Below, piece by piece: positions 31,613 through 35,774 of a DNA stretch of 35,774 nt; the first letter of the stretch is position 1; each line of letters opens with the position of its first letter. The DNA lies in the NCBI GenBank assembly GCA_905182785.1, contig CAJJDF010000069.1, forward strand, positions 1 to 35,774, in the 5' to 3' direction. The notes beneath the pieces are model-generated. The model saw only the letters and a program-made list of their open reading frames with translations, was not told where the DNA came from and made no database searches. The stretch is from an uncultured Flavobacteriales bacterium (GTDB lineage Bacteria > Bacteroidota > Bacteroidia > Flavobacteriales_D > CAJJDF01). The translations under genes and the position numbers were made by a program.

Positions 31613-31716
31613 ATAAAATAACTAGCGCATCTATGTTTTAAGGTTGTTAAAAAACCTCAAAATCATTGATAGTTAAACAAAAAATTGTATTTTTACTATT
31701 CAAAATCAATTTCAAG

Positions 31717-32148
31717 ATGAAACAACTAATTTTAGTTATAACAATAATTGCTTTCCTAACGGGCTGTAGCTCTTCAGTAAAAGAAACTATTCAGGCCAAT
31801 GCAAACACTACTTTGGCAATAGAAGGGATGACATGTGAAACTGGATGCGCTAAAAGAATTGAGCAAAAAATTACTAAAATGGAAGGTGTGAAATCTTGTG
31901 AAGTTAATTTTGAAAAGAAGCTTGCTACAGTAATTTATGACGATAAAAAAGTAGTATCAACACAGTTTGTTGATTTGGTTCAAGGTCTTAACGACAGCCA
32001 ATACAAAGTTTCGAATATTAAAACAGAAAAAATAAATAATTCAAATTCTAAATCTTCTTCCAAAGGTGGAGATGAAACAGGAAGCGTTTTGTCTAGCCCT
32101 TCTTTTGAATTGCCAAACATAATGGAATACTTAAGAAATATAATCTAG
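31717..32148 (+). CDS. Heavy-metal-associated domain lipoprotein
   Basis: A 143-residue lipoprotein with signal ending LTGC (Cys17), followed by an HMA ferredoxin-like domain (about 31-100). The metal loop reads GMTCETGC, with Cys40 and Cys44 in a CxxxC variant of the usual CxxC. A Ser/Asn-rich tail (about 105-130) ends the protein. Family members bind Cu(I), Zn or other soft metals; envelope location is inferred from the lipobox. The ATG at 31717 was chosen because it gives the signal peptide. It lies just upstream of the SAM riboswitch and may be transcribed separately. Confidence 0.82.
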   Translation: MKQLILVITIIAFLTGCSSSVKETIQANANTTLAIEGMTCETGCAKRIEQKITKMEGVKSCEVNFEKKLATVIYDDKKVVSTQFVDLVQGLNDSQYKVSNIKTEKINNSNSKSSSKGGDETGSVLSSPSFELPNIMEYLRNII

Positions 32149-32173: not shown

Positions 32174-32282
32174 AACTTATAAAGAAAGGTGGAGGGAAAA
32201 GGCCCTACGAAACCTTAGCAACCGTTCCAATTTATTGGTAAAAGGTGCTAAATCCTTCTCTAGAAATAGGGAAATATAAGTT
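32174..32282 (+). ncRNA. SAM-I (S-box) riboswitch upstream of metH
   Basis: The P1 helix AACTTATA (32174-32181) pairs perfectly with TATAAGTT (32275-32282). Inside, the S-box core is recognisable: GGTGGAGGGA, GGCCCTACGAAACC, TTAGCAACC and GGTGCTAA in the right order. A strong terminator follows 18 nt later, and the gene controlled is methionine synthase, the known target class. Confidence 0.88.
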
Positions 32283-32300
32283 GCATAAAAGGAAATTTAA

Positions 32301-32335
32301 AACCCCTTTCTGCAAATTGCAGAAAGGGGTTTTTT
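32301..32335 (+). terminator. Riboswitch-controlled intrinsic terminator before metH
   Basis: AACCCCTTTCTGCA pairs perfectly with its complement (32318-32331) around a 3-base loop, followed by T. The segment 32281-32292 (TTGCATAAAAGG) can pair with 32304-32315 (10 of 12 positions) as an antiterminator, and it shares TT with P1. Confidence 0.88.
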
Positions 32336-32356
32336 CGTTTAAAAAAAAGAAGAAAA

Positions 32357-33355
32357 GTGAGTAACATAAAAGAAGAATTAAAAAAGAGAATCTTAGTCTT
32401 GGATGGAGCAATGGGAACCATGATTCAACAGTATCAATTGAGCGAAGACGATTTTAGAAAAGGATGGTTTGAAGACAGTACATTTCCTTTGAAAGGGAAT
32501 AATGATTTATTGTCGCTCACTAGGCCTGATATCATAAAAGCAATTCATGCAAAGTATTACGAAGCAGGTGCAGATATTGTTGAAACCAACACATTTAGTG
32601 GAACTACCATTGCTCAAGAGGATTATGGCACACAAGATAAAGTGTATGAAATCAACTATCATTCGGCAAAAATTGCAAGAGAAATAGCTGATGAATTTAC
32701 AGCCAAAGAACCAAACAAGCCAAGATTTGTAGCCGGTTCGATTGGTCCAACAAACAAAACTGCTTCTATTTCTCCTGTGATAAACGATCCAGGGTTTAGG
32801 GCTATTTCATTTGATGAATTGGTCTCTGCATTTAAACTACAAACTGAAGCTCTAATTGAGGGTGGAGTTGATATATTACTGGTAGAAACAGTAATTGACA
32901 CACTAAATGCAAAAGCGGCCTTGTTCGCTATAGAACAAGTTTTTCAGGAAAAAGGGGTAGAAATTCCAATTATGGTTTCGGGAACAATAACCGACCAAAG
33001 CGGGAGAACACTTTCTGGGCAAACCACAGAAGCTTTTTTAATCTCAACCGAGCATGCCCCAATCACAAGCATTGGACTTAATTGTGCTTTGGGAGCAAAA
33101 GATTTACGCCCTTATTTACAAGTAATGTCCAAAAAATCGGCCTTTCTTGTCAGTGCACATCCTAATGCTGGCTTACCCAATGAGTTTGGGGAATATGACG
33201 AAACGCCAGAAATGATGGCAGAACAAATAAAGGTTTTCTTAGAAGAAGGATTACTAAATATTGTCGGAGGTTGTTGCGGTACAACTCCTGCTCACATAAA
33301 AGCAATTGCTGATTTAGCCAGTAACTATAAGCCTCGAGAAATTAATCAGGATTAA
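32357..33355 (+). CDS. metH: Methionine synthase, homocysteine-binding half (split MetH)
   Basis: Provides the homocysteine-binding barrel of B12-dependent methionine synthase, 332 residues, corresponding to the N-terminal module of full MetH. Seen are DGAMGTMIQ at the start, [15 protein letters not shown] and the zinc ligands GGCCGT near the C-terminus. The start is GTG at 32357 after AGAAGAAAA. The remaining modules are in the gene at 34123. It is controlled by the upstream SAM riboswitch. A QueF-like gene follows after 97 nt. Confidence 0.95.
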
Positions 33356-33452: not shown

Positions 33453-33893
33453 ATGGCTACACCTAAACTATACAAAGAAATTGATAAAACAATTTTGGAA
33501 GCAATTCCAAACCCTTCGAGACAAGCGTATGAGATTAAAATTAAAATACCTGAGTTTACCTTCTTGGGAGTAAAAGAACAACCAGACTTTGCTACGATAT
33601 TTTTGACTATGTATCCAAACAAAAAGATTATTGAATTAAAATCATTGAAAATGTATTCGTTTCACTTGAGAGATATTGTGGTTTCTTACGAAAGATTAAT
33701 TAATATTTTTTACGATCACTTGATGGAGGTATACGAACCGGACAGAATGAGAATAGAAATGATTTGTAACCCAAGAGGAGGAATATCTGCAAAACTTGCA
33801 ATTGATTCGGATTGGGCTGCAAGAGGGGGGGAAGAAAAATACAAAGATTGGATGAATAGCTCAGGAATGGACAACTGGAGTGTGGTGATGTAG
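33453..33893 (+). CDS. QueF-like T-fold protein lacking the catalytic cysteine
   Basis: A 146-residue protein aligned to QueF (preQ0 reductase) by QPDFATIF (43-50), ELKSLKMY (61-68) and PRGGIS (107-112). In QueF the loop before QPDFAT reads FTxLCP, its Cys forming the thioimide with preQ0. Here it reads FTFLGVKE, with Gly39 in the Cys position and one residue fewer. The His of the HE pair is replaced by Tyr79, while Asp45, Glu61 and Glu80 remain. The only Cys (105) lies elsewhere. A purine- or pterin-binding T-fold without preQ0 reduction is inferred. It lies between the two metH halves. Confidence 0.8.
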   Translation: MATPKLYKEIDKTILEAIPNPSRQAYEIKIKIPEFTFLGVKEQPDFATIFLTMYPNKKIIELKSLKMYSFHLRDIVVSYERLINIFYDHLMEVYEPDRMRIEMICNPRGGISAKLAIDSDWAARGGEEKYKDWMNSSGMDNWSVVM

Positions 33894-34122
33894 ACGTTTG
33901 CTCGTTTTATAAAGAAAAAAAATAGAAGGTTCGAAGAGTTTTGAAAAAATTTATTTCTACAGAATTACTTGTGGCTTCAGTTGTAAAGGTCTAGATAGAT
34001 GATGCAAGAAAAATGAAAAGGCTACATTCTTTAATCAATGACTTTTTAGAACTAACTATAAAATCTGGCTTAAATCATAGTGATGTAAAGTCAAGCATCA
34101 TAAAAAATTGGTAAAAAAGAAA
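33894..34122 (+). other. Gap between QueF-like and second metH gene
   Basis: No gene is assured in these 229 bp. A short frame of 33 codons (34013-34114, MKRLHSLINDFLEL...) has no recognisable match and may be a gene remnant. No terminator hairpin and no exact TAnnTTTG box in the plus orientation were seen, so the second metH gene is probably read from upstream. Confidence 0.3.
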
Positions 34123-35774
34123 ATGAAAAAGTATACCCTAAAACTAAGTGGACTAGAGCCATTAATCGTTACACCAGAAACCAATTTTGTAAATATTGGG
34201 GAAAGAACTAATGTAACAGGTTCTCGTAAATTTTTACGATTAATAAAAGAAGAACGATTTGATGAAGCACTTGATGTTGCTCGGGACCAAGTGGAAGGTG
34301 GTGCGCAAATCTTAGATGTAAACATGGACGAAGGGATGTTGGATGGAAAAGAAGCCATGGTTAAGTTTTTAAACTTAATCGCTTCTGAGCCAGACATTGC
34401 TCGTATTCCTGTAATGATTGATTCCAGTAAATGGGAAATCATAGAAGCTGGACTTAAATGCATTCAAGGTAAAGGAGTTGTAAATTCAATTAGTTTAAAA
34501 GAAGGGGAAGAAAAATTCATTGAACAAGCAAGAAAAGTAAAAATGTATGGTGCCGCAACTATTGTTATGGCATTTGATGAAAGTGGACAAGCAGACAGCT
34601 ACGAACGAAGAATTGAAATTTGTAAACGCTCTTACGACATCTTGGTGGACAAAGTAAAATTTCCGCCTCAAAACATTATTTTTGATCCTAATATCTTTCC
34701 TGTTGCTACAGGAATTCCTGAGCATAATAATTATGCTGTCGATTTTTTTAATGCAACAAAATGGATAAAAGAAAACTTGCCTGGAGCTAGAATTAGTGGA
34801 GGCGTGAGTAATGTTTCATTTTCGTTTAGAGGAAATAATAAAGTAAGAGAAGCCATGCATTCTGCATTTTTGTATCACGCTATACAACACGGAATGGACA
34901 TGGGAATTGTAAACCCAACTATGTTGGAGATTTACGATCAAATCCCGAAAGAGTTATTGGATAAAGTAGAGGATGTATTGTTGAACAGAAATGACAATGC
35001 AACTGAAGTTTTATTGGAATATGCAGAAAGTGTAAAAGGTGACGGAAAGAAAAAAGAGAGGGATTTAACTTGGAGAGAAACGGATGTGAAATCTCGAATT
35101 ACGCACGCACTAGTTAAAGGAATAACTGAGTTCATTGTTGAAGATACCGAAGAATGTCGTTTGTTATTTGACCAACCTATTGAAGTAATTGAAGGTCCTT
35201 TGATGGATGGGATGAATGTGGTGGGAGATTTATTTGGGTCAGGTAAAATGTTTTTGCCTCAGGTAGTAAAATCTGCTAGAGTAATGAAACAAGCGGTAGC
35301 TTATTTAAATCCATTTATTGAAGAAGCAAAAAACGGAGAAGTAAAACCTAACGGAAAAGTATTGATGGCGACCGTAAAAGGAGACGTTCATGATATTGGA
35401 AAAAACATTGTGGGTGTGGTTTTGGGTTGTAATAATTATGACATTGTAGATTTGGGTGTAATGGTTCCTACCCAAGATATTATTAAAAAAGCAATAGAAG
35501 AAAACGTAGATGTAATTGGACTTAGTGGTTTAATTACACCTTCTTTGGATGAAATGATTACAGTTGCCGAAGAAATGGAAAAAGCAGGATTAACTATTCC
35601 ATTATTGATTGGTGGAGCTACAACTTCTAGAGTTCATACAGCTGTGAAAATTGAAGAAAGCTACACCAAAGGACAAACTATTCATGTGTTGGATGCTTCT
35701 CGTTCTGTAACAGTAGTTGAGAAATTACTGGGAAATTCTTCCAAAGAATTTGTGGCAGATATTAAAACCGAATA
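34123..35774 (+). CDS. metH: Methionine synthase, folate- and cobalamin-binding half (split MetH), partial
   Basis: Carries the remaining MetH modules. The open frame of 550 codons runs off the window end. Visible are the pterin-binding barrel (about 20-290, beginning [17 protein letters not shown], with VNMDEGM and MIDSSKWE), the cobalamin cap (about 300-395) and the B12-binding domain with DVHDIG (His423 is the lower axial ligand), ending near residue 545. The reactivation (SAM-binding) domain should follow beyond the window. The ATG at 34123 precedes the family start. Methyl transfer runs from 5-methyl-THF to B12 to homocysteine on the partner protein. Confidence 0.96.

Follow-up and report, generated by a model that had tools for sequence, protein, structure and literature searches.

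What would a relative of QueF that lacks the defining cysteine of that enzyme do inside a methionine synthase operon? The question was raised by an open reading frame in the window (the whole 35,774-nucleotide stretch of DNA analyzed) lying between the two halves of a split metH. The original prediction had described its product as a Cys-less QueF-like protein between metH genes behind a SAM riboswitch, and this was confirmed by the open reading frame, by its profile matches and by the alignment of its Gly39 with Cys55 of QueF. The operon order in the window was riboswitch-metH1-QueF-like gene-metH2, with the following features:

32174 to 32282, plus strand: SAM riboswitch aptamer (RF00162) at the head of the operon, 86 bits, E 3e-19, matching the full model (1-108)
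32299 to 32333, plus strand: terminator hairpin of 16 pairs, belonging to the expression platform of the riboswitch
32357 to 33355, plus strand: metH1, the homocysteine S-methyltransferase half of MetH (PF02574, 336.6 bits)
33453 to 33893, plus strand: QueF-like gene, 146 amino acids, with Pfam QueF (PF14489) as its sole Pfam match
34108 to 35774, plus strand: metH2, the pterin-binding and B12-binding half of MetH, with a likely ATG at 34123 and continuing past the end of the window

The region of the riboswitch and terminator (32174-32340) had a fold z-score of -5.87. The QueF-like protein matched Pfam QueF with 60.2 bits (cut-off 27.3) and the NCBIfam QueF-II model TIGR03139 with 88.6 bits (cut-off 86.9). 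Since both cut-offs were passed, automatic pipelines would call it a preQ(1) synthase.

A scan of GTDB genomes identified 80 loci encoding homologues with glycine in place of the cysteine (hereafter Gly-type), comprising 78 distinct sequences. The residues that were compared, with their conservation among these sequences where counted, were encoded as follows:

33567 to 33569, plus strand: codon GGA of Gly39, at the site of the QueF thioimide cysteine in the alignment; glycine in 78 of 78
33585 to 33587, plus strand: codon of Asp45, matching Asp62 of QueF; aspartate in 78 of 78
33633 to 33656, plus strand: ELKSLKMY (residues 61-68), matching the NADPH-binding QueF motif in the alignment (motif definition, PMC5372742)
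33687 to 33692, plus strand: codons of Tyr79-Glu80, with Glu80 matching the substrate-anchoring Glu97 of QueF; tyrosine in 78 of 78, glutamate in 77 of 78 and X in the remaining one
33804 to 33890, plus strand: C-terminal tail DSDW..RGGEE..DW.....W.V, with Trp121, Trp133 and Trp142 invariant in the homologue alignment

These assignments were made by alignment to B. subtilis QueF, in which Tyr79-Glu80 corresponded to His96-Glu97. The QueF motif, which binds NADPH in QueF, is defined as E(S/L)K(S/A)hK(L/Y)(Y/F/W) (PMC5372742), and ELKSLKMY fitted it except at residue 67, which is Met here and Gln, Glu, His or Leu in relatives. The claim that the ligand-binding Glu and Asp are kept was upheld. 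The tyrosine in place of histidine, which had been taken as a sign of lost function, proved not to be distinctive: in the majority of the phylum's unimodular QueFs that have the cysteine, this site is likewise Phe or Tyr (IYFE, IFYE). The glycine was another matter: its invariance, one of the points on which the original prediction had been staked, indicated that the loss of the cysteine was not a chance event. The thioimide cysteine (Cys55/194) is a defining QueF residue, and a survey classed sequences without Cys55 as non-QueF (PMC5372742).

The Gly-type sequences grouped in a single clade (SH-aLRT 98), separated from Cys-type QueF by a long branch, and their C-terminal tail (DSDW..RGG.E...DW...D.W.V) was nearly invariant across the 78 homologues and not seen in QueF. 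A family profile run over 148 genomes of the phylum scored the window at 283 bits and all others at 76 bits or less, with none between. A separate Cys-to-Gly QueF, with EFTTLGPVNRQPDF and FYEH, was encoded in genome G150 (L208, 8241-8756, minus strand). This protein grouped with the Cys-type QueFs, which indicated that the cysteine has been lost at least twice; its scanned neighbors were a glycosyltransferase and two open reading frames without Pfam matches, with no folate or methionine gene among them.

The AlphaFold model of the QueF-like protein (pLDDT 81.7, with low confidence for residues 136-146) was a T-fold (tunnelling fold) whose closest structure was QueF 4fgc (Z 14.5, rmsd 3.2, 131 residues), followed by QueF-L and then FolE. 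Unimodular QueF (the NADPH-dependent preQ0 nitrile reductase, TIGR03139; B. subtilis 4fgc, 4f8b) resembles the protein in this fold, in about 30% identity and in the Asp62, Glu97 and motif positions, whereas the Gly-type protein has no thioimide cysteine, belongs to a separate clade, has its own C-terminal tail and stands in a methionine context in a genome with no preQ0. The archaeosine synthase QueF-L (5jyx, 5k0p; Z 13.9) is also a QueF-derived T-fold with a new function, but it retains the cysteine where the Gly-type protein has glycine and acts on preQ0-tRNA (PMC5485725). GTP cyclohydrolase I (FolE) shares the T-fold (Z 11-13.7) with only about 8-14% identity.

MetH requires methyl-THF. 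MetF, described in the literature as the sole known route to methyl-THF (PMC7857596), was missing from the genome that carries the window, as no PF02219 match was found in this 2.32 Mb, 100% complete genome. Several marine Bacteroidota groups have MetH without MetF and so a hole in their methionine pathway. MetF was missing from 20 of the 46 genomes bearing the Gly-type gene, which argues for replacement. The original prediction had left the ligand at a pterin, folate or purine, and the absence of MetF indicated a specific step that it had not seen. We consider it fairly probable that the QueF-derived family replaces MetF, acting as an NADPH-dependent, flavin-free T-fold 5,10-methylene-THF reductase that supplies 5-methyl-THF to MetH.

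The co-occurrence data showed a strong association that pointed the same way. Among 60 relatives in the order, MetF was found in none of the seven bearing genomes compared to 48 of 53 non-bearing ones (missing in 7/7 versus 5/53; Fisher p 2e-6), and in the Crocinitomix family (150 genomes) it was missing from 10 of 13 bearing versus 8 of 137 non-bearing genomes (p 9e-9). Both p values precede any correction for relatedness and are inflated by it; a phylogenetically corrected test on the MetH2 tree gave 3-5 independent contrasts, none opposing the prediction, and was not significant, which counts against the proposal. Each of the 13 bearing genomes in the Crocinitomix family had MetH, whereas seven of the eight non-bearing genomes without MetF lacked it, so that these seven need no methyl-THF for MetH; they (G029, G263, G311, G339, G346, G361 and G376) are probably methionine auxotrophs or MetE users. 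The eighth, G366, had MetH and neither MetF nor the Gly-type gene, and as such is an exception that speaks against replacement; it is a MAG of 92% completeness made up of 500 contigs. In favor of replacement, G265 and G274, which fall inside the bearing clade of the MetH2 tree, were without the Gly-type gene and had MetF.

Gene order lent further support. In the non-bearing relatives L228-L231 the operon was riboswitch-metH1-metH2-metF, as against riboswitch-metH1-X-metH2 here, X being the Gly-type gene. The metH linkage, whose recurrence the original prediction had made a matter for checking, did recur: the Gly-type gene lay between metH1 and metH2 in Crocinitomicaceae, Cyclobacteriaceae, Flammeovirgaceae and Marinoscillum, and a distant MAG without MetF (L084) had riboswitch-metH-Gly-type gene with a single-chain metH. 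In Chitinophagaceae the order was riboswitch, Cys/Met PLP enzyme, Gly-type gene and homoserine dehydrogenase. All three operon types, namely those with split metH, with the single-chain metH of L084 and that of Chitinophagaceae, were headed by a SAM riboswitch, and we count the last two among the evidence for the replacement of MetF. The gene stood alone in Marinilabiliaceae and the Kangiella group and after thyX in Deltaproteobacteria, and no riboswitch was seen at the copies in these three groups. The thyX neighbor favors the proposal, as its product works on the same substrate. In the seven Deltaproteobacterial carriers L065, L071, L074, L078, L079, L085 and L092, ThyX was present, QueC was found in six, and neither FolA nor a B12-binding_2 MetH was detected. 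That these bacteria carry the gene without such a MetH counts against the replacement of MetF, which alone does not explain it.

MetF was also present in 26 of the 46 bearing genomes and, in Marinoscillum, in the same operon as the Gly-type gene. These cases weigh against the proposal and ruled out strict exclusion between the two genes; the pattern would suggest that the Gly-type gene makes MetF dispensable rather than that the two are mutually exclusive. MetF/MTHFR (PF02219), an FAD-dependent TIM barrel, would share with the Gly-type protein the proposed reaction, and it shares the operon slot beside metH2 and the SAM riboswitch control. The two are unrelated in fold and sequence, as the QueF-like protein had no PF02219 match and its model was not a TIM barrel.

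For the reaction, the cofactor, the roles of the residues and the binding of folate by the Gly-type protein, we infer the following from the conserved residues and from known enzymes. The cysteine of QueF makes a nitrile reducible by converting it to a thioimide. Since an iminium can be reduced as it stands, a nucleophilic cysteine would be dispensable, and the glycine would leave room. The pterin would be held in the former pocket for the preQ0 head with Glu80 as its anchor, an acid (Asp45 or Glu80) may help methylene-THF to open to the N5=CH2+ iminium, and NADPH on the kept ELKSLK motif would pass one hydride directly to the iminium carbon. The Gly-type protein has lost only the nucleophile and retains two carboxylates, one of them the anchor, together with the greater part of the NADPH motif, a pattern that would suit direct reduction of an iminium and that, at the level of sequence, favors the replacement of MetF.

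Known enzymes offer an analogy that would favor this route as well, since methylene-tetrahydropterin reductases transfer a hydride to an N5 iminium and use a glutamate to donate the proton; the hydride is passed on directly, by NADH in Mfr and by F420H2 in Mer (PMC11094777). The flavin-free mycobacterial methylene-THF reductase Mfr and Mer would thus resemble the Gly-type protein in the proposed flavin-free direct hydride transfer and differ from it in fold and, as to Mfr and Mer, in reductant. The methylene-tetrahydropterin reductases known so far all have the TIM-barrel fold (PMC11094777), which tells against a T-fold enzyme of this kind. On balance we lean toward regarding the family as a fourth independently evolved methylene-tetrahydropterin reductase and the first that is not a TIM barrel. 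With about 145 amino acids, it would use NADPH without a flavin, would have arisen from QueF when the thioimide cysteine was lost, would supply MetH in Bacteroidota that lack MetF and in at least one distant lineage, and would at present be misannotated as preQ(1) synthase. If this is correct, it would be a clean non-homologous replacement within core one-carbon metabolism, in which an enzyme of covalent catalysis became a simple hydride-transfer enzyme through loss of its nucleophile, and a systematic misannotation would be corrected. Our literature search, with preprints and most subscription journals outside it, found no work linking QueF with methylenetetrahydrofolate reductase or the tunneling fold with methylenetetrahydrofolate.

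The alternative that survives best, though we regard it as rather unlikely, is that the protein is another folate or pterin reductase or binder (for dihydrofolate, another dihydropterin or folate sensing) serving methionine and thymidylate synthesis, which makes no methyl-THF itself, the loss of MetF being covered by an unseen enzyme. T-fold proteins bind pterins, the Deltaproteobacterial carriers next to thyX all lack FolA, the chemistry of reducing the N5=C6 bond in dihydrofolate is similar, and the coexistence with MetF noted above would fit. However, the genome of the window has both FolA and FolE, and this alternative leaves the absence of MetF unexplained in genomes that carry the gene and retain MetH. 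Separately, replacement of DHFR in the window's organism was ruled out by the FolA match (180.8 bits) and replacement of FolE by a separate FolE on contig C44.

We also considered an accessory, scaffold or reactivation partner of MetH that joins the split halves without folate catalysis. The position between metH1 and metH2 would suit such a role, as would that in L084, downstream of a MetH without an activation domain, but the idea is disfavored and appears improbable: a split MetH often occurs where the gene is absent, the gene also follows an unsplit MetH and lies outside the metH neighborhood in many genomes, Deltaproteobacteria have it without a B12-binding_2 MetH, and the loss of MetF goes unexplained.

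The original prediction had asked whether a canonical QueF exists elsewhere in the same genomes. In the window's genome no second QueF was found, its other T-fold match being FolE as judged by sequence; no QueC was found at E 1e-3, which indicated that the organism makes no preQ0. In ten Marinilabiliaceae genomes with QueC, a bimodular Cys-type QueF (NCK.T.QPDW, HFHE) adjoined queC and was present besides the Gly-type protein. The QueF-like protein is therefore not the QueF of its genome. The idea that it serves this organism as QueF, or is a degenerate QueF being lost, is close to refuted and hardly credible, since the defining cysteine is missing (PMC5372742), there is no preQ0 to reduce, the queC-linked enzyme of Marinilabiliaceae is a separate one and invariance over 78 sequences is not decay, even though the TIGR03139 cut-off was exceeded by 1.7 bits and the Deltaproteobacterial carriers have QueC and, in those inspected, showed no Cys-type QueF next to queC. 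Overall, the view that the protein is not a QueF, that it takes part in folate/B12-dependent methionine synthesis and that it is, with high probability, a repurposed T-fold protein was supported; of the interpretation first offered, the significance given to the His-to-Tyr change was not.

Several further open reading frames were observed around the Gly-type gene. In the window, the spacer from this gene to metH2 (33894-34122, plus strand) was unusually long and without an open frame; at the same spot, L047 had a 140-amino-acid open reading frame whose product looks like a four-helix-bundle protein. In L043 a different open reading frame, of 172 amino acids, lay between metH1 and the Gly-type gene. 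Directly upstream of the riboswitch, a putative lipoprotein with a heavy-metal-associated domain was encoded at 31666-32148 (plus strand), and related open reading frames occupied the same position in L032, L033, L034, L043 and L044.
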